DNA from: a virus
Direction: 5' to 3' (one strand)
DNA: 20,771 bases
Virus record (IMG/VR): IMGVR_UViG_3300035698_000234
Coordinates: 1 to 20,771 of that record
Positions 1-20,771 of the stretch are shown here, piece by piece. Each line of letters starts with the position of its first letter. The first letter of the stretch is position 1. The notes under the pieces were generated by a model, which was not told where the DNA came from, ran no database searches, and saw only the letters and a program-made list of their open reading frames with translations. A program made the translations under genes and the position numbers.

Positions 1-1082
1 ACTCCGAGAGCGATACCGCCGTTGGCGCGAGAAAGAGTTACATCATACGTAGTTCCCTCACCTATCATCCACGCGCCAAGAGTAGACGAACCTCCAAAGT
101 TACCTTCGCCTGCCGAGGGCACCCCTGCGTTCCCAGAAAGCGTCATGTTTGCGGCAGTGACTCTACCTGAAACAGTTAGGGTTCCTGCGGGTATGATCAC
201 ATTCTGTGTGCCTACTGTTACAGCGATACCTACCTGTCCAGAGCTGTTACCCAAGAAGGAATCATACGTAGATCCCTTCCCGTAGAAGCCGCCACCGTTG
301 GTGGATGACGCGCTTACCCCCGCTTGACGGTTGCCATCCAGCGTAGGACCTGTATTCTTGACCCATAAACCGGAGCTGGGTTCTAGGATAATTATTCCTC
401 CCGCTGACAAAGTGAGGGTTCCCGCCCCATCTATCTCAGCTAGTGCCGTACCGACATAGTTATCCACCTTCAAGGCGTAGTTGTTGGAGTTAGAGCCTCC
501 AACAACGTTCAGTCCGTACCCTGAACCGGCAGTGTTGCTGATGACGGCTGCTGCTGTTGCGACAGTAGAGGTAGTTACAGCCGTGATTCCTGCACCAAGC
601 GTGCCAGTGGTCACGAGGTTATCATCCCCAAAACTTATCTCGCCAGAGGTGTCCGTTATAGAACCAGAGGCGAGGACGAGGGTACCAAAGGTGATAGTCC
701 CTGAAGCTGATATGGTGGTGAACACACCTGTCCCTGGAGTGACGTTACCTATGGCAGTCGCGTTCAGTGCAGGGGTCTCAATCCCAGCATCGTTGAACTC
801 AGCCACGAGTATTCCCGAAATCGTGGCGCTGATGTCTACACCATTCCTAAAGAATCCTGAGCTAGTATCAGAGCCAAAGTATAGTCCAGGAGCTGCTAGG
901 ACTCCTTCAATTACACCCAGTTGGGCAGTCATCTGCCCTTTACCAGTACGGGAGAGTGAATCAGTGAGCTCGGTGGCTACGTCGTTGAACGTAGTGTTGG
1001 CCCACGTGATGGCGATAGTTGTTCCCGTTACTACTGGGTTTCCAACGGGAAGTGTGTAAGTGCCTGTCGCATTTCTAGCCAT
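1..1082 (-). CDS. Tail fibre protein, N-terminal part (cut by window edge)
   Basis: The frame opens with ATG at 1082, 1 nt past the stop of the upstream gene, and stays open for 360 codons to the left edge, so the C-terminus is missing. The product begins MARNATGTYTLPVGNPVVTG and continues with TWANTTFNDVATELTDSL and SRTGKGQMTA. This opening is typical of podoviral tail-fibre/appendage proteins, whose N-terminus docks to the tail and whose C-terminus binds the host. From about residue 68 (LYFGSDTSSGFFRNG) the chain is rich in Gly, Thr, Ser and Asn with short beta-type repeats, as expected for a trimeric fibre shaft. A weak AGG lies about 11 nt upstream of the start. It is the last visible gene of the late operon. 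The receptor-binding tip and any chaperone domain lie outside the window. The family-level call comes from recalled N-terminal similarity, not from a search. Confidence 0.75.
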   Translation of the reverse strand, partial: MARNATGTYTLPVGNPVVTGTTIAITWANTTFNDVATELTDSLSRTGKGQMTAQLGVIEGVLAAPGLYFGSDTSSGFFRNGVDISATISGILVAEFNDAGIETPALNATAIGNVTPGTGVFTTISASGTITFGTLVLASGSITDTSGEISFGDDNLVTTGTLGAGITAVTTSTVATAAAVISNTAGSGYGLNVVGGSNSNNYALKVDNYVGTALAEIDGAGTLTLSAGGIIILEPSSGLWVKNTGPTLDGNRQAGVSASSTNGGGFYGKGSTYDSFLGNSSGQVGIAVTVGTQNVIIPAGTLTVSGRVTAANMTLSGNAGVPSAGEGNFGGSSTLGAWMIGEGTTYDVTLSRANGGIALG

Positions 1083-1083
1083 G

Positions 1084-2676
1084 TTATTCTACCTGTCCTG
1101 ATGCTGAACGTCTCAATGCTCCTGCCGTAGCCCCGATGATCGGGTTCTTCTTAAGGAGTTCCTTTGTGCCTTTTTGCATGAAGTTGTCACCCATTAGGAG
1201 GTTCTGCATAGGCTTGGTCGCTGCTACTGGAGCGGCAAGCATCGCCCCTCCTCCTGTAGCTGCTGCTGTCGCCATAGCTGCGAGCTTACTCCACAGTCCA
1301 GGTTCACTGATGTCTTGGTGCACACCTGCTGCCCTGTCAGTGTACTTCTGCAAGGCTGAGGGCGTTCCCGCCTTCTTGCCCTCGCGCTGGACTATCTTTT
1401 GGAGGCTACCCATACTGAACTCACCTCCTACTGCACCTTGCGCGGCTTCTTCTAACTGTTTAAATTCCATCCATTTGCTGTTAAGTGTACCATACTCCTC
1501 CAGCTTTGCCATGTTCTTAGGGGAGGGGCCTTTCACACCCTTCATAAGACGCACCTTAACCAGCTCGTCTATGGCGTCAGCAGCAGCGAGCATATCCTTG
1601 GATACCTGCCTACCTGCGACGTTGATATGCTTGGCTGCTTCATCCTGTAGCAGCTTCTTAGCCTCCATGAGGTCTGTACCTGTCAGCCTCGTGAGGTCTC
1701 CAAACTTCTTGCGCACAATGTCGCTAGCTTCCTTGGACACAGGTGGAAGCTCCTTTGCTAGGAAGCTCATCTCTTTACCCTTGACGTCAGTGAATACGCG
1801 CTTGTACCCTTCGTCAAACGTCTTAGCCACGGTGCTCACGAAGTCCTGTGTAGCCCCTTGAGGCGCGAGGTTTGGTACAGCTCCGTCGGGGGTGCCTTGC
1901 TTAATTGCATGAGATCGCAGTGCGCGGGTGGCGTCATCTACTTGACCTTTGAGCGTGCCTGTAGTCAACGGCAGTGCGGGGAGAAGATTGTTGTACGCCC
2001 ACTTCGCCATCCCAGATGCCCCGTCATCGGCTGCTGCCATACCGATAGGCATGAACTCCTGTCCTGTCTCCTTCATGAGGGCCTGTGCTTCGGGGGACTT
2101 CTTAACGATGCCTCCACCAACACGACCCATGACCTTACCTAGACCACCTAGACCTCCGCTGATTGCACTACCCGCCAGAGCACCTATATCTTTGTTCCCA
2201 GGATCGGCCATAAGAGCGCCCGTAGCAGCCCCCTCACCCACTAGACCGGCTGCACCAATGGCTTTGGCTACCTTACCCCCTTGTGCAGCTCCACGGGCAA
2301 TTCGAGCAGCCTGAGCACCCTTCGCAACGCCACCAATGGCACCCAATGGCGCAAGCGCGGCTGTCTCACCTAAGAGGCTTCCAGCCATCCCTGCTCCTGT
2401 GTTTAACAGAGCTTCATCACTGGCTTTGGCTGACGCTAGTTCATCATCGCTAACTGCCCCGACAAGGTTACCAGCGTGACGACCTACATTAGTCAGCCCT
2501 TGCCCGAATCCAGCAGCCAGCTTACTCGGGGTGTTCATCCCACGAGTAGGGTCAGGCCCAGCGCGAGGCTTTAAGTCCTCTGCAAAGATGCTGTCCACCT
2601 GTGCAGTCTGCTTTACTCGCTTGGCTTTCCAAGCCTGTAGCTCCTGAAGCCTAGCGGCCTGCTGCTGACTGAGCAT
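1084..2676 (-). CDS. Putative internal virion / DNA-ejection protein (530 aa)
   Basis: The start is taken as ATG 2676 (MLSQQQAARLQELQAWKAKR) because GGAGG lies 6 nt upstream. An in-frame ATG 14 codons earlier (2718) has no such site. The gene overlaps the preceding gene by 26 nt. The protein has a basic, helical N-terminus (about 1-25). A long Ala/Gly-rich part with glycine-zipper-like runs (about 80-200, e.g. GALAGSAISGGLGGLGKVMG) resembles segments that cross membranes in ejected phage proteins. A charged helical second half (about 250-450) follows, with another Ala-rich patch near 470-500. Its place just before the fibre and after other Gln/Ala-rich proteins matches the internal-core/ejection genes of short-tailed phages. 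I see no lytic transglycosylase motif. The ejection role is inferred from composition and position; a structural or tape-measure-like role is possible. Confidence 0.55.
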   Translation of the reverse strand: MLSQQQAARLQELQAWKAKRVKQTAQVDSIFAEDLKPRAGPDPTRGMNTPSKLAAGFGQGLTNVGRHAGNLVGAVSDDELASAKASDEALLNTGAGMAGSLLGETAALAPLGAIGGVAKGAQAARIARGAAQGGKVAKAIGAAGLVGEGAATGALMADPGNKDIGALAGSAISGGLGGLGKVMGRVGGGIVKKSPEAQALMKETGQEFMPIGMAAADDGASGMAKWAYNNLLPALPLTTGTLKGQVDDATRALRSHAIKQGTPDGAVPNLAPQGATQDFVSTVAKTFDEGYKRVFTDVKGKEMSFLAKELPPVSKEASDIVRKKFGDLTRLTGTDLMEAKKLLQDEAAKHINVAGRQVSKDMLAAADAIDELVKVRLMKGVKGPSPKNMAKLEEYGTLNSKWMEFKQLEEAAQGAVGGEFSMGSLQKIVQREGKKAGTPSALQKYTDRAAGVHQDISEPGLWSKLAAMATAAATGGGAMLAAPVAATKPMQNLLMGDNFMQKGTKELLKKNPIIGATAGALRRSASGQVE

Positions 2677-3604
2677 ACTCTGCCTCCAATTGATCCAGCA
2701 TAGCCTGCTGTGGGTCAAGGTTAGGGTCTTGAGGAGGGCCGTTCAAAGGACCCTGTTCCATAGATTCAAGGTCACCAAAGTACACGTCAATAACCTCTTG
2801 ATCATACCCTTGTAAGCTCATGGACTGTGTGAGCCTGCTGATGGCTAGGTTCTTCAGCCTAGCTATCTCTGCCATGTTAAGCTGAATCTGCTCGTCAGTC
2901 ATGTTCTCGTGTATGTTAGCCTTCGCCCACGCGGTCTGCTCGTTGGAGGTAAGTGTAGCCCCGAACAAGCTGTTTCGTTCCCCGAGGGTGTACGCCCTAT
3001 CCCACTCAGCCCACCACTTCTGGCGAGCCTTGGCGTCATCAGTGGCAAAGAAAGGTGCCTCCGAAGCAACGTAGTTAGCTAAAGTACCTGATTTCGGAAT
3101 ACTACCTCCAGTGGGGGAAGCGTAGGTAGGGCTGTAGGCTGCGAGCGCACTGTTCATCGAAGTAGCCTTACTTGACTCCTCACGCATGAGGGTCTCCATC
3201 TTGTAGGTAATCTTCTTAGGTGCGTTCATCTTAGCCGCTAGAGCCTGACCAGTCAAAGCATTCTTTTGACCAGTCAGCTTCTCCATCACTCGCTGGTGAC
3301 GGTTGCGCTCCTCTTGTGCCTGCTTCTGGGCTTCGTCCCGCTGATCGTTAGCTCTACGAGTCTCTGCAAGCTGGGAGGTCCTCTGCTGGTCACGCATGTT
3401 TTCCTGCCGTGAGTCCTGCATGGTGGTGATGTCCTCTGCCACCTCCCTCCCCATAGACTTACCCAAGGGGGAGAGAACTCTATCCCCTGTGAGCATCCCG
3501 ACCTTACCCATGTACCTCTTCTGCTCTAAGGCTGCGGCAGTTTGCTGGAGTGCCCGAGGGTCTTCAGGGCCTCTACCTAGTAGCTGCTCTTCGATTGACT
3601 GCAT
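2651..3604 (-). CDS. Putative internal virion protein with coiled coil (317 aa)
   Basis: The ATG at 3604 overlaps the upstream stop (TAATG junction), so translation is probably coupled. Residues about 60-125 are rich in Gln, Arg and Glu and look like a charged coiled coil. The segment around 195-255 (KWWAEWDRAYTLGERNSLFG followed by ATLTSNEQTAWAKA) resembles a helical module I recall from other phage virion proteins near the ejection genes. The C-terminus is acidic and Pro/Gln-rich. There is no signal peptide, membrane span or enzyme motif. It lies between a small Pro/Gln-rich protein and the glycine-zipper protein, which suggests it belongs to the internal core or ejectosome. That role is inference; the reading frame itself is secure from its length and junctions. 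Confidence 0.55.
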   Translation of the reverse strand: MQSIEEQLLGRGPEDPRALQQTAAALEQKRYMGKVGMLTGDRVLSPLGKSMGREVAEDITTMQDSRQENMRDQQRTSQLAETRRANDQRDEAQKQAQEERNRHQRVMEKLTGQKNALTGQALAAKMNAPKKITYKMETLMREESSKATSMNSALAAYSPTYASPTGGSIPKSGTLANYVASEAPFFATDDAKARQKWWAEWDRAYTLGERNSLFGATLTSNEQTAWAKANIHENMTDEQIQLNMAEIARLKNLAISRLTQSMSLQGYDQEVIDVYFGDLESMEQGPLNGPPQDPNLDPQQAMLDQLEAEYAQSAAGR

Positions 3605-4107: not shown

Positions 4108-7100
4108 CTAGAAAAATGCTCCGGCCAACCCTACTGCTCCGTTGAGGAAGGCTTGGTCACCCTGTTGGTTCAAGCTAAACTGGTCTAGCTGACTCTGGTA
4201 CTGTGATTGCGCCGCGCCCAGTAGTTGAGGCGTCTCGCTCCTGTTAGCTGTATTGAACGATGGTCCCTGCTGCATCCCCACCTGTTGTCCAGTGAGTGCT
4301 GCGTTCATTTCGTTCAAGCCCTGAGTCCTTCTGTTCTGCTCCTCAGAGATAGCCTGCTGACGTATCTGGTTCTGCATACTGGTCGCTTGCATACCCTGAC
4401 TGAACTGCTGTCCACCAACTGCGAGCTGCTCATTGACCTGCTGCTGACGCTGCTGGTTGTTGAACCCTGCCGTAGCCATGTTCTGGCTAAATTGCTGCGC
4501 CCCTTGAGCCATGTTCTGGTTGAACTGCTGACCCTGACCTGACAACTGAGCTTGGTAACCCGCCATATCCTGACCAAACGCCTGACCTTGCTCGGACTGT
4601 CCTTGCTGACGTAGGTCTAAGCCTTGGCCGAATCGCTGCCCTTGCTCTGCCTGCCCCTGCTGTCGGGTGGTCATGTTCTGGCCAAACTGCTGACCTTGCT
4701 CGGATTGACTCTGCTGACGCCCTGCAATGCCTTGATCAAACGACTGCCCACGTCCACGCATCATGTTGTCAAACTGCTGCTGACGAGTACCTGCCATGCC
4801 AGCCGCGATAGCCTGCTGCTGATCGAAGCCTTGCGCCTGTTCCCCGAAGGACTGTGCACGTTGCTGATCGTTGAGTTGGGCTTGCTGCATGTTCTGTCCA
4901 AACTGCTGGGCTTGCTCGCCCGTAGCTTGAGCACGCTGCTGATCTTGCATCTGTGCACGCTGGATATTACGAGCGAACGCATTCTGCTGGCTACCTTCCT
5001 GCTGCTGGAAGTTCTGGTTATTAGCGGCGAGGTTCTGTCCAAACTGCTGGTCGTTAGCTGACTGCCGCTGCCCGAAGTTCTGCGCGTTGGCTGTCGCATT
5101 CTGCCCAAACTCTTGCGCTGTCTGCTGGGACCGCTGTCCAAAGTTCTGCGCGGAAGCCGTAGCCCTCTGGTCGAACTGCTGCCCACCGGAAGCTAGGTTC
5201 TGTCCAAATGCTTGCCCCTGCTCGGCAAGACGGTTACCCCGTATGTTCTCAGCGAAGCCTTGCTGATCAAGCGACTGGCCGAACTGCTGCTGTTGCTCCG
5301 CTGCCTGTTGAGCACGCTGACTGTTCGCGAGCTGGGCGTTGGTAGTTTCCTGCCCGAAGGTCTGCGCCTGCTCTCCAAATTGCTGAGCACGCTGAGCGTC
5401 TTGGTTCTGGCTATTGGCCATGTTCTGCCCAAACGCCTGCCCCTGAAGGTCTGCACCTAAGCGAGCCTGTGCATCAACGTTCTGGCTGTTCCGCATGTTC
5501 TGGTCAAACGTCTGCCCTTGTAGGTCAGCACCTAGCCGAGCCTGTGCGTCAACGTTCTGGCTATTAGCCATGTTCTGCCCGAACGCCTGCGCTTGCTCGC
5601 TTTGCTGTTGAGCTCTCTGCTGGTCAGCGTTCTGGCTGTTAGCCATGTTCTGCCCAAATGCTTGACTCTGCTCAGCCACGTCCTGAGCCCTCTGGGAGTC
5701 CCCAAGGTTTTGGTTAGTAATGTTCTGGCCAAATGTCTGCGCCTGCTCACCGGCCTCCTGTGCACGCTGAGCTGCGTTTATAACGTTAGCCCCAGAATTC
5801 TCCCCAAACAATTGCCCACGAAGCTGGTTCGCGAACTGCCCACTGGCTAGTGATTCACCAAACTTGGCTCCACCCATCTGCATCTGCTGGTCAAGACCTT
5901 GTGCGGATGCTTGGTTGGCAAAGTTGCCTTGAGTCAGCTGCTCTCCCGTACCTTGCTGTCTAGCAGCTAGCTGCTGGTCAAAGGATCGCTGCCCCTCAGA
6001 GCCTGCCGTCATCAAGGCTTGGTTCTGTGAGTCTAGGTAAGCGTCGTTCTTGTTCTGGTCAAAGTCACGCATCTGGCGATCGTACTGTACGTCACCCTCT
6101 CGTAGACCTTGGTTGTAGAGCTGGGTGCGTAGAGCATCCTGCCCTTCTGCAAAGCGAGGATCCATGCGGGACTCGAAGCGGTCGTTGATAGACCCCTCTA
6201 CTCGGTCACGCAAGGCCATAGGATTTTCAAGGTCGTCAATGCCACTGAAGTCTAGCCCGTTCTGTATGAGCTCTTCTTCGTACTGCTGTGACTGAGGGCC
6301 TGCACCAGAGGCGGGAAGACCTGTACGCGGGTCTGTACCGAACTGTGAGAGTGAGTCGCTGTTAAGGGGAGTGACAGCCCCACGTCCACCACGACCTCCT
6401 GGACTAAGTGACGCACCACCACCTGAACCTTGAGGAGCCTGCGCAGTGAATGACTGACCACCACCCTGACCTTGAGGGGCTTGTGAGTCGAATGACTGGC
6501 CACCACCTTGACCCAAGCTGACACCCTGATCTAGTGATTGCCCACCCCCTTGTCCCTGACGCTGTACGTTACCGTAGTCAGGAAGCTGGCCACTAACGCC
6601 GAACTCTGCGTAGTAGTTGGGATCACCCATGTCTAGCCCATCGGCACTTCCTGCAACTCCAGGATCGTACACGTCGCCATGAACAGGTGCATTGGGTGCG
6701 ATGTAGTTAGCCTGACCCGTTTGTCCTCTACCTAGCTCTCTAGGATTGAGAGGTCCTGTGGGCCGAGTGTTAGTAGGTTGAGTGTCAGTTGCTGGAGGCG
6801 CGTTGGGAACTTGACTACGGTCAGGTCTGTAATAGTCAGCACTTACGTTAGAGCTACCAGCCTCCCGTTCAAAGCCTCCCCAGTTTCCGTTGTTGTAGTC
6901 AGGGTTCGTAGACACGTCGCCGTAAGGATTCCCAGGAGCGATACCACCATTGTTGATGCTACCCCCGTTAGAGCTCGGACCACCAAAGGACTGCTGAGTC
7001 TGAGGTTGTCCTATTCTAACCGAGGGACGGTCTTGGCTATGGGGCTGATCGCTAGTGGCGCGGCCCTGCGTGAATCCAGAGTTAACTCGTCGTATGACGT

Positions 7101-7644
7101 CAGCTAAAGTCTCGTTAGACCTAGAGGTCTCCTGTATGGCGTCTCCATGTGTGGTCACGTGGTCGTTGTTAAGCTGCTGAGTGGCTCCCTGCTGATACTG
7201 AGGTACGCCAGCTTGCTGACTGAACTCAGGGTTGTTTAGGGTCTGGAAATTATTAAGGTTCTGCCCAGCGTACGTGGAAGGTTCAGGGGTTGATCCTGGA
7301 GTAGGCATCTGGTCCCAAGGCATTGGCTGGGAGAGTGCTTCAGCCGAACTACCTATGAGGCCCTCAGCCATAGCTGACCGACCACCTTGTACAGCTATCT
7401 GGCTGTCTAGAGCTGCTTGCAACGCTGGGTCTACTTCGTAGTTCTGCGTCCACTTGTTTAGGTTCTGCCCAGTAGTCGGGTCATACTCTTTTTGAGCGTC
7501 CCAAGTAGTGCTTCCCCACGGAGTTATCTGGTCCGGACGGTTAGCCCAAGTCTGCTGCTCGGTGATGTCTCTACTTGCTTCCCCTTGGGCGATCGCTGCC
7601 GCCGCGTAGTTAGGTGGAGCTGGAGCTGCGCTTTTCTTTCCCAT
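4108..7644 (-). CDS. Giant Gln-rich repeat virion protein (1178 aa)
   Basis: The start is taken as ATG 7644 (MGKKSAAPAPPNYAAAAIAQ) because this opening is typical of a podoviral structural protein. An upstream in-frame ATG at 7707 only translates the end of the preceding gene. The Shine-Dalgarno is weak (TGGA), so coupling to the overlapping GNAT-like gene is likely. Architecture: conserved N-terminus with TWANRPDQITPWGSTTW (about 35-51); a disordered Gly/Asn/Pro region (about 150-360); four Gly-Gln repeats of the GQGGGQSF type (about 363-412); a mixed region (about 430-600); then about 470 residues of F-G-Q-N-M repeats (613-1081) with strikingly regular Phe spacing; and a C-terminus ending NGAVGLAGAFF. 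No enzyme motif is visible. Position among ejection-type genes suggests an internal virion protein, a tail-extension or a channel-forming protein. The exact role is unknown. Confidence 0.6.
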   Translation of the reverse strand: MGKKSAAPAPPNYAAAAIAQGEASRDITEQQTWANRPDQITPWGSTTWDAQKEYDPTTGQNLNKWTQNYEVDPALQAALDSQIAVQGGRSAMAEGLIGSSAEALSQPMPWDQMPTPGSTPEPSTYAGQNLNNFQTLNNPEFSQQAGVPQYQQGATQQLNNDHVTTHGDAIQETSRSNETLADVIRRVNSGFTQGRATSDQPHSQDRPSVRIGQPQTQQSFGGPSSNGGSINNGGIAPGNPYGDVSTNPDYNNGNWGGFEREAGSSNVSADYYRPDRSQVPNAPPATDTQPTNTRPTGPLNPRELGRGQTGQANYIAPNAPVHGDVYDPGVAGSADGLDMGDPNYYAEFGVSGQLPDYGNVQRQGQGGGQSLDQGVSLGQGGGQSFDSQAPQGQGGGQSFTAQAPQGSGGGASLSPGGRGGRGAVTPLNSDSLSQFGTDPRTGLPASGAGPQSQQYEEELIQNGLDFSGIDDLENPMALRDRVEGSINDRFESRMDPRFAEGQDALRTQLYNQGLREGDVQYDRQMRDFDQNKNDAYLDSQNQALMTAGSEGQRSFDQQLAARQQGTGEQLTQGNFANQASAQGLDQQMQMGGAKFGESLASGQFANQLRGQLFGENSGANVINAAQRAQEAGEQAQTFGQNITNQNLGDSQRAQDVAEQSQAFGQNMANSQNADQQRAQQQSEQAQAFGQNMANSQNVDAQARLGADLQGQTFDQNMRNSQNVDAQARLGADLQGQAFGQNMANSQNQDAQRAQQFGEQAQTFGQETTNAQLANSQRAQQAAEQQQQFGQSLDQQGFAENIRGNRLAEQGQAFGQNLASGGQQFDQRATASAQNFGQRSQQTAQEFGQNATANAQNFGQRQSANDQQFGQNLAANNQNFQQQEGSQQNAFARNIQRAQMQDQQRAQATGEQAQQFGQNMQQAQLNDQQRAQSFGEQAQGFDQQQAIAAGMAGTRQQQFDNMMRGRGQSFDQGIAGRQQSQSEQGQQFGQNMTTRQQGQAEQGQRFGQGLDLRQQGQSEQGQAFGQDMAGYQAQLSGQGQQFNQNMAQGAQQFSQNMATAGFNNQQRQQQVNEQLAVGGQQFSQGMQATSMQNQIRQQAISEEQNRRTQGLNEMNAALTGQQVGMQQGPSFNTANRSETPQLLGAAQSQYQSQLDQFSLNQQGDQAFLNGAVGLAGAFF
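4402..5816 (-). repeat. Diverged in-frame tandem repeats encoding the Phe ladder
   Basis: This part of the Gln-rich gene consists of diverged in-frame repeats of 75, 33 and 54 bp (25, 11 and 18 codons). Each begins with a codon set for F-G-Q-N or a variant. The clearest DNA copies are the 75-bp units around 5400-5640, which share stretches built on AACGTTCTGGCT and ATGTTCTGCCC as read on the plus strand. Counting codons from ATG 7644 puts the first Phe of the ladder at residue 613 and the last at 1081. The units have drifted at synonymous and some amino-acid positions while the Phe register is kept. Confidence 0.8.
6409..6555 (-). repeat. Gly-Gln-rich repeat block (four units)
   Basis: Residues about 363-412 of the 1178-residue protein contain four related units of the form Q-G-x-G-G-G-Q/A-S-F/L, separated by DQGVSL, DSQAPQ or TAQAPQ. 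The plus-strand sequence shows the matching repeated CCACCACC-TGACCTTGAG words. The block is probably a flexible linker between the N-terminal part and the long helical repeat region. Confidence 0.7.
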
Positions 7645-8059
7645 GATCAATCCATTTACAATTGTCGCGATGCAGCACAGTGACGATATAGTCAATGCCA
7701 ACATCATACGCGTCTGTCATCACCATGACTTCCTCAAAACCAACGTGCTTGTTGAACTTCAACGAAGCCTCGTTGTTGCTAGGAGTCAACCCATAAATCA
7801 TCAACTTACCTGCGGTGTTGAACACATAGTCGAACACCTTCTCTATAAACTTTTCCTTAATCACCCACTTGTTAACGATGGTGACGTGTATCTGTACGCT
7901 GGTGGCAGTCCAGTTATCAAAGACTGCTGCGGCCAGTAGATCACCCGTATCCGCGTCCACCGCTACTATACCAGTTGTGTCCTGAACTAGCAAGGCGTGA
8001 ACATGCTCACTCACCGCTGGCCAATCCATAGGGTCCATAGCTCGTATGACTACGTTCAC
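7610..8059 (-). CDS. GNAT-like acetyltransferase-fold protein (149 aa)
   Basis: GTG start in a GTGA overlap with the upstream stop, with GGGGGC just upstream. The C-terminal half reads as a GNAT fold: a strand IHVTIVN (about 56-62), then helix VIKEKFIEKVFDYVF (about 65-79), a strand KLMIYGLTPSNN (about 85-96), then ASLKFNKHVGFEEV (about 98-111). The N-x-A-S-x-x-x-x-K-x-x-GF pattern is the classic end of GNAT motif B. The acetyl-CoA pyrophosphate loop (R/Q-x-x-G-x-G/A) is not visible between strand and helix, so catalysis is doubtful. GNAT-like genes of this kind occur inside the structural cluster of several podoviruses, with unknown substrate. The 3' end overlaps the giant Gln-rich gene by 35 nt. 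The fold call is fairly secure; activity is unknown. Confidence 0.65.
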   Translation of the reverse strand: MNVVIRAMDPMDWPAVSEHVHALLVQDTTGIVAVDADTGDLLAAAVFDNWTATSVQIHVTIVNKWVIKEKFIEKVFDYVFNTAGKLMIYGLTPSNNEASLKFNKHVGFEEVMVMTDAYDVGIDYIVTVLHRDNCKWIDHGKEKRSSSST

Positions 8060-9648
8060 ATGAAGCCCCCTGACATATAGGTCGTGTTGATGCCCACCAG
8101 AGTAGTCTCAGCTGAGCTAGTCATGTTGAGAGCTACAGCGACATAAGTACCCAGACCAGAAGCTGCTTGAGTAGGCTGTAGCGGGATGCTGGCACCTGAC
8201 CATTCAGAGTCATCCCACACAGCGTTGTCCCAGATGGCTGCGGCCAGTAGGATTTGACTGGGGAATCCCGTAGGTTCATCTACGTTAAAGTCCACAAGAA
8301 TAGACAAGTTGTAGACAGGTACTGATTGAGACTGGAACAAGGGTCTTACCAAACCCATGATTTTCAGGGTAGCTGGGTTACCATCTAAGTTGCTGAACGC
8401 GGTTAGGAGTGAAGACTCTATAGCTGAGCCTACAGTACCATCAAGCAGTGTACCATCCAAGTGATTAGTGAGCGACCATATAACCCCTGTGTCATCCCCT
8501 ATGTAAACGTCACCGTCGTAGCTCACACAACCCGCCTGAAGGGGTACACCCCTCCAAGCAGACCAAGCGCCTGTAGACAGGTTCATCACAAACTGGAGGT
8601 AATCGTAGCCGACCTGCTTAGGGGTCGTGATCACCAGCACGTTCTGGCTGGTGGCTGTGAAGATAGACCACCCATTCTCATTGTGATACAGATCAAGGTA
8701 GGGCTTGAGTGCCGCACTCACCTTGTAGGTAACGTAGAGCTCAGCATTGGATATGTCCAAGCCCTTCAACAGAGCTGCCATACTGATGAGTCCGTACCTA
8801 GACAGTAGCAAGAGGTCACCACCATACTTGACGGCTACGTTTCTTCCGGTGGGGAGGTGGCCAATAAACCACGAGCCTTGGCTTTCAAATACCTGAGCAG
8901 GATCGGTACCTCTGTAGACGAGCATATCCCCAGAGCTACTAATGACAGAGAGATAATCATCACTACCATCACCCCCATCAACAGTCCAATTATACATTCC
9001 TTGAATATAGCCGCCATGTTCAAACCTATTACCAAACTCGAAGCAGACCGCTGCACCTGCGATAGCTCCTACAGGAAGATACCACGCGCACCCAGAGTTC
9101 TTCTCTATGAACCAAAGGCGCTCCTTCCATTCCATTACGAACACTACGTCCGCGACAGTAGGTCCTGTGATCGTAGAGACAGACCAAGTATCCGTGGACT
9201 GTGTATAAAGGTACAGACCGTTCGCACTGTCCGCTAAGAACAGGAACACTCCTGCGGCGGTTTCAAATTGGCAGTACGAGGCCCAGCCCGAGGTTGTGTC
9301 TTGAATGCCAAAGCCCACAGTAGGTGACGTTCCGTCGATGACCCCACCTGCTGTGACGTCGTATATGCCGTTCCTGTCTGTGCAGAACAGTCTGTCGTCA
9401 CTGTGGTCCTGAGCACCTGCTGTGAAAGGTACCATAGTGACGACGCCTGATACGGCGCTTAGACCGTTGGCAAATTCTGTCGTCCCGTTACGTACAGTGA
9501 TCCCGTTACCTGAAGGTACGAGATTGAATGCGTAGAGGCAGTTGTTAGGATCCATATTGGTGAGAGCTTGGCTACCATCAGTCCCTCCCACAGGGGCTGG
9601 GAATGTGAATGTCTGGGCCTGCTGCTCTTGTTGCTGTTGAGGCATCAT
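8056..9648 (-). CDS. Putative tail nozzle / tail stabilisation protein (530 aa)
   Basis: ATG 9648 follows a GGGAGC ribosome site and lies 3 nt after the upstream stop. After a Gln-rich leader (MMPQQQQEQQAQ) the protein is beta-rich, with repeated short patterns: RLFCTDRNGIYDVTAGG (about 86-102), FVMEWKERLWFIEKNSGCAW (about 168-187), LLLLSRYGLISMAALLKG and DGDVYIGDDTGVIWSL. These resemble the beta-propeller/nozzle type proteins of short-tailed phages (P22 gp10 or T7 gp12 class), which extend the portal channel and close the tail. The gene follows a gp4/gp11-type adaptor, the usual order in podoviruses. There is no signal peptide or enzyme motif. The functional call is inferred from position and sequence pattern. 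Confidence 0.6.
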   Translation of the reverse strand: MMPQQQQEQQAQTFTFPAPVGGTDGSQALTNMDPNNCLYAFNLVPSGNGITVRNGTTEFANGLSAVSGVVTMVPFTAGAQDHSDDRLFCTDRNGIYDVTAGGVIDGTSPTVGFGIQDTTSGWASYCQFETAAGVFLFLADSANGLYLYTQSTDTWSVSTITGPTVADVVFVMEWKERLWFIEKNSGCAWYLPVGAIAGAAVCFEFGNRFEHGGYIQGMYNWTVDGGDGSDDYLSVISSSGDMLVYRGTDPAQVFESQGSWFIGHLPTGRNVAVKYGGDLLLLSRYGLISMAALLKGLDISNAELYVTYKVSAALKPYLDLYHNENGWSIFTATSQNVLVITTPKQVGYDYLQFVMNLSTGAWSAWRGVPLQAGCVSYDGDVYIGDDTGVIWSLTNHLDGTLLDGTVGSAIESSLLTAFSNLDGNPATLKIMGLVRPLFQSQSVPVYNLSILVDFNVDEPTGFPSQILLAAAIWDNAVWDDSEWSGASIPLQPTQAASGLGTYVAVALNMTSSAETTLVGINTTYMSGGFM

Positions 9649-9651
9649 GTG

Positions 9652-10410
9652 CTAGCTCCCGAAGCCAGTGTCCGAGAAGTTACGTGCGTCAAGGAAGTGT
9701 ATACCTTGTCGGCCTCTAGACAAGCTAATGATCTGGGCACCTGAGTCGCGGCCTGTGATAAGGTTAAACGTGTTTTCAGCATCCTTCTTAGCTACGCTAG
9801 AGGGGAAGCCCTTCGCATTGAGCCACTCATACTTGAGTCTGCTGATTAATGTGAGGGCGTCTAACATGCAGACGTTAGCCCCTGAGGTCATACGATCGGC
9901 GTAGTCAGTCCCTGACACAACTTCCAGCCATAGGCGGGAAACGTACCTGAACTTAATCACGATACCGTTAGCAGGAGGCTGAGGGTACAGCCAGAGCTGG
10001 TTGTCGTTTATCTGGAAGTTAACGTTGAATGTGTTGTCTGTCTGGTCAATGCCCACGAGATGCGTAAACTGCATATCCGTGAGTGCACCCCCTAGAGGGA
10101 GGTCATTGGTAGTGTCCCAACCAGTGTTATTGATTAGGTACGCAAAGTCGGCGGGGAGGTCGTACTTACCTTCACTCTGTAGCGGAGTAGTCACCGTGTC
10201 GTCAGTGGTGATGGCCCAGTCCTTCTTGGTACGCTGCCAAGCGTTCTCCATCACGAGGTGCTGGCCTGCCAAGTTGAACAGGTAGGTCATCTGTATCCAC
10301 GTAGCTTCAGCGGAGTTAAAGATGTCTGCAGGAGGGGTGAGACCGACAGAGGCAGCACAGGTAGCCATGATGCTCTGGGCAGTTTCGTACCGTGTTACCG
10401 TGTCAGCCAT
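9652..10410 (-). CDS. Putative head-to-tail adaptor / tail tubular protein A-like (252 aa)
   Basis: ATG 10410 has AGGAG 5-6 nt upstream, formed where the previous stop TAG meets GAGATACA. The protein has a helical N-terminus (MADTVTRYETAQSIMATCAA) with LVMENAWQRTKKDWAITTDD around 50-70. A beta section follows (YDLPADFAYLINNTGWD, about 84-100; NDNQLWLYPQPPANGIVIKF RYVS, about 133-155), then a helical C-terminus. The LP-x-DF-x-Y and W-x-YPxP pattern is typical of podoviral adaptor proteins (P22 gp4 / T7 gp11 class) that ring the portal and bind the nozzle. Its place between the decoration-side gene and the putative nozzle agrees. Length is in the usual range for this class. Confidence 0.65.
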   Translation of the reverse strand: MADTVTRYETAQSIMATCAASVGLTPPADIFNSAEATWIQMTYLFNLAGQHLVMENAWQRTKKDWAITTDDTVTTPLQSEGKYDLPADFAYLINNTGWDTTNDLPLGGALTDMQFTHLVGIDQTDNTFNVNFQINDNQLWLYPQPPANGIVIKFRYVSRLWLEVVSGTDYADRMTSGANVCMLDALTLISRLKYEWLNAKGFPSSVAKKDAENTFNLITGRDSGAQIISLSRGRQGIHFLDARNFSDTGFGS

Positions 10411-20123: not shown

Positions 20124-20239
20124 GGTCAGCGCCCTAGTTAAGGGATGTTAAGGGATTTGGTCAGCGCCCTAGTTAAGGGATTTGGACATCGTTAAGGGAT
20201 TTGGTCAGCGCCCTAGTTAAGGGATGTTAAGGGATTTGG
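20124..20239. repeat. Composite direct-repeat array around GTTAAGGGAT
   Basis: A 22-bp unit beginning GGTCAGCGCCCTAGTTAAGG occurs at 20124, 20159 and 20203, alternating with shorter GTTAAGGGATTTGG units. The core GTTAAGGGAT is present six times in the same orientation. Spacing between the long units is 35 and 44 bp. Same-direction short iterons of this kind are typical of initiator or partition-protein binding sites; no spacers of CRISPR length are present. Confidence 0.85.
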
Positions 20240-20285
20240 TACTATCTTAAACTGTTAGCTGCTACTATCTTAAACTGTTAGCTGC
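20240..20285. repeat. Perfect 23-bp tandem duplication
   Basis: Two identical 23-bp units (20240-20262 and 20263-20285), each TACTATCTTAAACTGTTAGC plus TGC, lie head to tail directly after the GTTAAGGGAT array. The TGTTAGCTG word also appears, changed or inverted, around 19330-19345, next to the terminators. Confidence 0.9.
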
Positions 20286-20692: not shown

Positions 20693-20702
20693 GAGAAAGC
20701 GC

Positions 20703-20755
20703 CTGTACATCCGTACAGTAGTTTACATCCATACCACGCCTGTACATCCGTACAG
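20703..20755. promoter_or_regulatory. Two identical LexA-like palindromes (possible SOS boxes)
   Basis: CTGTACATCCGTACAG occurs at 20703-20718 and again at 20740-20755, 37 bp apart. Each is an imperfect palindrome with CTGT at one end and ACAG at the other, fitting the CTG-N10-CAG gammaproteobacterial LexA box. A third TACATCC lies between them (20724-20730), giving three such words at 18-19 bp steps, so binding of a phage repressor or initiator is an alternative. The regulated gene would lie to the right, outside the window. Confidence 0.45.
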
Positions 20756-20771
20756 TACTTCCACCCCACGC

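Follow-up and report, generated by a model that had tools for sequence, protein, structure and literature searches.

An enlarged phrog_6121 virion protein with a predicted helical, length-variable aromatic ladder in the ejection-protein region of an Mx8-type podophage

The tape measure proteins of siphophages provide the closest precedent for the protein described here. Aromatic repeats of 11 or 11-11-18 residues occur in about 5% of the tape measure sequences examined (PMC3271669), and the tape measure protein of TP901-1 contains 29 repeats of 11 or 18 residues, the deletion of which results in shorter tails (PMC5099701). Tandem 11- and 18-residue aromatic repeats of this kind, found in the tape measure proteins of TP901-1, p2, and staphylococcal and clostridial phages, resemble the present ladder and bear out its initial description as tape-like. 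In podophages, the tubeB gene is followed by ejectosomal genes (PMC10386132). T7 gp14 occupies such a position, after the nozzle and gp13/IVPA genes, as does the protein described here, and ejected gp14 adopts a hairpin of two helices within a channel that is hexameric (PMC11784390).

The window analyzed (the whole stretch of DNA under study) spans a complete IMG/VR record (20,771 bases). Its terminase, portal, major head protein, adaptor, and nozzle genes can be named; no tail tube gene of a long-tailed phage can be named in it. On the minus strand, the adaptor (tail tube A, phrog_6013; 9652..10410) is followed by the nozzle (tail tube B, phrog_5107; 8056..9648) and by an acyltransferase-like gene (phrog_4470; 7610..8059), the 'IVPA' of Mx8/P22-type podophages (PMC10386132). 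The next gene on this strand (4108..7644, with its ATG at 7644) encodes an 1178-residue protein that matches phrog_6121, 'virion structural protein' (E 1.9e-10, residues 451-655), and no other phrog family. All 61 homologues scanned also match phrog_6121. The scans yielded a family set of 108 non-redundant members, of which the window protein is the longest. Short tandem repeats (35, 23, and 37 bp; 20124-20285 and 20700-20771) occupy the right end of the record, where no open reading frame is listed.

The order of nozzle, acyltransferase, and ladder gene is that of Mx8-type podophages. Among the 107 homologue loci, an upstream nozzle gene is present in 102 and an upstream acyltransferase gene of the IVPA type in about 94. 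Mx8 itself has the same gene order and a 333-residue homologue, p54. In PhiGT1, the two genes that follow the family homologue (gene 17; profile comparison with the window family, probability 99.7) are annotated as injection proteins. Downstream in the window, a 317-residue protein (2651..3604, minus strand) is a weak homologue of Mx8 p56, a phrog_917 member described as 'released from the phage upon host infection', and a homologue of the 544-residue protein (1084..2718, minus strand) in contig L006 matches 'internal virion protein with endolysin domain' (T7 gp16-type). Only 4 of 20 records contained a match to the gp16-type family phrog_342, so at that sensitivity a gp16-type partner is not general. 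In L006 (19273-20961) a transglycosylase domain is fused to the gp16-type protein, and the 544-residue homologue in the window has no recognizable one. BLASTP detected no similarity between T7 gp13 and the acyltransferase. The ladder gene is an enlarged phrog_6121 member of Mx8-type podophages located in the ejection-protein region. Two homologues that are 98% identical, one from a contig in an Acidobacteria MAG (L167:6001-7419) and one from an IMG/VR phage (L046:15177-16811), offer a possible hint of a host.

Mx8 p54 and the 342-residue PhiGT1 gene 17 product share with the window protein their gene position, N-terminal domain, hairpin, and C-terminal cap. They differ in having little or no ladder and a C-terminal S74 domain, whereas the window protein lacks S74 and has a ladder of about 470 residues. 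Most relatives carry S74, but like the window protein some (L003, L009, L013, and L052) do not, and S74 is therefore not strictly defining for the family. The domain is variably present at the C-terminus (compare L073 with the window protein, L003, L009, L013, and L052), and members without it have a Gly/Phe-rich tail. Matches to phrog_4287, 'DNA ejection protein', in 25 relatives derived from S74 only and disappeared once that domain was removed; they were discarded.

Since S74 is typical of trimeric fibers, its prevalence is the best argument for a different function, that of a trimeric helical tail fiber or needle assembled with the help of an S74 chaperone, which the window member would have lost or detached. 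A protein with S74 at a similar gene position in phiM5 has been found in particles and named a tailspike; however, it resembles Mx8 p54 in S74 only. A separate fiber-like gene already exists in the window (3-1082) and downstream of the family member in 42 loci, and the gene in question lies between IVPA and the injection proteins annotated in PhiGT1. The arrangement of hydrophobic residues, on two opposite faces at 3.60 residues per turn rather than along one heptad or hendecad seam (see below), also speaks against a fiber, and we consider this function rather unlikely.

AlphaFold models the window protein as an N-terminal domain, a disordered linker, a hairpin, a series of ladder helices with breaks, and a C-terminal helix. 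The conserved alpha-beta-alpha N-terminal domain (residues 1-120; 7285..7644, minus strand, as for all parts of this gene) is modeled with pLDDT of about 80-93 over most of its length and carries the conserved motif ANRPxQxTPWGSxTW. In the L073 model, VIA matches of this domain to the arms of HU/IHF (Z about 3) are too weak for use. The variable low-complexity linker (residues 121-470; 6235..7284) is predicted to be disordered, with pLDDT of 33-43; within it lies a second array, a 42-bp repeat encoding GQGGGQSF-type units (6415-6513). The conserved hairpin (residues 475-599; 5848..6222), with pLDDT of up to 97, is predicted to consist of helices at 475-511 and 519-599 joined by the loop NQGLREGD (511-518). 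The cap RQQAISEEQNRRTQGLNEMNAALTGQQVG..P.F (residues 1095-1130; 4255..4362) consists of near-invariant alignment columns. The hairpin and the cap RQQxIAE...NEMNALLTGQQV, both of them conserved, flank the ladder.

The ladder begins with a block of 25-residue (75-bp) units (residues 612-811; 5212..5811), followed by one of 11-residue (33-bp) units (residues 812-889; 4978..5211), the best-predicted helix of the ladder, and ends with a mixed 25/18/11 block (residues 890-1081; 4402..4977). The initial annotation listed 26 ladder Phe between residues 613 and 1081 (nucleotides 4402-5808), and in the translated open reading frame every position is exact, as is the series of gaps (25 eight times, 11 seven times, 25 twice, 18, 11, 18 four times, 11, and 29). 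Within residues 601-1095, Phe pairs are in excess over shuffled sequences at distances of 25 (11 observed, mean 1.9, z 7.2), 11 (9 observed, mean 1.8, z 5.6), and 18 (7 observed, mean 1.75, z 4.3). As the initial annotation stated, all gaps between the listed Phe but the last equal 11+7k. Four others in the region were missing from that list, and two of them (756 and 933, each 7 residues before a ladder Phe) obey the rule but two (797 and 1061, each at +9 after a ladder Phe) do not. On either side of the ladder, Phe 595, 604, and 613 are spaced 9/9 and Phe 1052, 1061, and 1081 are spaced 9+20, which is the usual spacing of the phrog_6121 family.

The 26 ladder Phe concentrate at a single phase of the helix (R = 0.76 at 3.605 residues per turn and 0.05 at 3.5). 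AlphaFold2 assigns helix and zero strand over residues 475-1178, and no strand after residue 71, so that both period and model agree with the proposed alpha-helix of about 3.6 residues per turn. The ladder is predicted to be helical, at moderate confidence (pLDDT mostly 50-85). The single continuous helix of 70 nm envisaged earlier is not what is modeled, as the ladder is interrupted at five places (near residues 609-620, 727-736, 796-819, 947-978, and 1007-1037). L073, which has a different ladder, yields the same plan together with a confident S74 domain. Searching the PDB by sequence with the window protein gave no match, and by profile matched S74 only; Foldseek against the PDB returned nothing at E 0.001 or better, and the named matches in BFVD were relatives or unnamed phage proteins.

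Comparison with relatives changes the picture of a single Phe face. The 11/18/25 spacing is not kept in homologues, which counts in part against the initial annotation. The commonest gap between their aromatic residues (F/Y) is 9, followed by 18, 11, and 20. Nine residues make two and a half turns, and side chains so spaced alternate between opposite faces of a helix. In a second-harmonic test, 16 of 17 lineages had their hydrophobic residues on two faces separated by about 180 degrees, with a period of 3.60-3.625 residues per turn (3.645 in L163); the corresponding one-face test failed in most lineages. This rules out a one-face coiled coil for the family as a whole. Of the 35 aromatics of the window protein, 30 are found on the same half of the helix. 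The descriptions 'one Phe face' and 'mixed hendecad-heptad' are therefore apt locally, for the window protein, but do not extend to the family. The aromatics of the window protein are shifted mostly to one face, and its 11+7k rule is a local variant.

Synuclein and perilipin have 11-residue repeats that form amphipathic helices lying on membranes. A long helix of this type would be compatible with the mostly one-sided aromatics and otherwise polar surface of the window protein, but relatives are hydrophobic on two opposite faces and the ladder has few basic residues (27 R and no K, against 37 D+E), which makes a membrane-lying helix very improbable.

The ladder segment ranges in homologues from absent to about 480 residues. 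Its length changes mostly in steps of 18, 11, or 29 residues, which comes close to the earlier idea of evolution by units of 33, 54, and 75 bp. In the largest cluster, the distances from hairpin to cap are 101, 119, 137, 155, 209, 245, and 281, all of which equal 101+18k; in other clusters, lengths differ by 11, 18, 29, 36, 44, or 145, and one pair (97 and 101, a difference of 4) breaks the rule. A Rayleigh test for 18-residue steps gives p of about 3e-9 at 95% clustering and p of 0.6 at 60% clustering, where the signal is lost because lineages differ in base length and in units; the claim of steps is accordingly based on differences within clusters. In 14 representatives of the family (60% clustering), autocorrelation computed on full sequence identity detected 32 significant lags spread over ten lineages, the units being 18, 29, 11, or 25 residues and their sums. 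At 3.6 residues per turn these lags have a mean cosine of 0.90 (null standard deviation 0.125). Steps in whole units follow from duplication of an existing unit and so by themselves do not prove selection for helical register, but duplication leaves unexplained why units that are unrelated between lineages should all approximate whole turns.

In another explanation, the ladder is a Gln-rich, low-complexity filler produced by replication slippage and its spacing is structurally meaningless. Gln makes up 29% of the region, a tandem duplication is visible in the DNA at 5404-5590, and AlphaFold2 tends to render Ala/Gln-rich sequence as helix. Against this, the differing units of the various lineages all fit 3.6 residues per turn, and both Phe codons are in use in the ladder (15 TTT and 11 TTC). 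Codon changes between close relatives with ladders of equal length were 16 synonymous and 2 nonsynonymous (L107/L106), 15 and 0 (L109/L120), and 18 and 0 (L022/L156); more distant pairs are less clear. The large excess of synonymous changes in these close pairs means that their ladders are not neutral filler. Strong purifying selection acts on the ladder in close relatives, and the filler explanation, already disfavored, is improbable.

The ladder is alike in design to tape measure repeats but is not a member of that group. No homology between the ladder protein and tape measure proteins was found. Our autocorrelation of the TP901-1 protein gave lags of 11, 22, 29, 33, and 40, with one face near 3.66 residues per turn and no two-face signal, whereas phrog_6121 relatives are mostly two-faced at 3.60-3.625. 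The tape measure gene of a long-tailed phage has tail tube genes on one side and distal tail genes on the other, whereas in the window the adaptor, nozzle, and IVPA genes are upstream. The likeness to T7 gp14 is one of position and perhaps of a hairpin. The window hairpin superimposes on gp14 (9jz0_0) with Z 7.0 and rmsd 5.5 over 96 residues, but unrelated helical hairpins score similarly and no such match was obtained when the L073 model was used. No sequence homology to gp14 was found (hhalign probability 0.2%), gp14 belonging to phrog_805 and the window protein matching phrog_6121 only, and none to T7 gp15.

The explanation that we favor, with somewhat better than even confidence, is that of a virion protein of the ejection type whose helical segment varies in length, is extended in whole turns, and packs in oligomers. 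Its core would be the helical hairpin and, after it, a long helix extended by tandem repeats (11, 18, 25, or 29 residues per unit, each near whole turns at 3.6). The number of units could then change while the conserved cap at the helix end kept its orientation. The two opposite hydrophobic sides seen in most relatives would fit a helix packed between neighbors, whether in a sheet, in a bundle, or in the wall of a tube, the sticky faces holding neighboring helices together. The protein would be packaged in the virion and during infection may help to build or line a trans-envelope channel. Ladder length would then set the reach of the oligomer inside the virion or of the ejected channel. Family membership, gene context, whole-turn repeats, the two-face pattern, and selection on the ladder come directly from the computations, and the helix is predicted; what we infer are the roles, from presence in the virion to ejection, oligomer, channel, and length setting. 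The 'ejected channel' of the initial annotation is plausible, its basis being the gene neighborhood. A bolder and doubtful proposal is that podophages have their own version of the tape measure principle. In it, gain and loss of whole-turn units would adjust the reach of an ejected helical protein, and identical helices with two opposite sticky faces could tile the wall of a tube of adjustable length across the envelope.

The family offers a natural series, from no ladder to about 480 residues, that would allow a comparative test of ladder length against channel reach. The two-face, 3.6-residue pattern is a specific structural prediction, unlike classical coiled coils and tape measure proteins.
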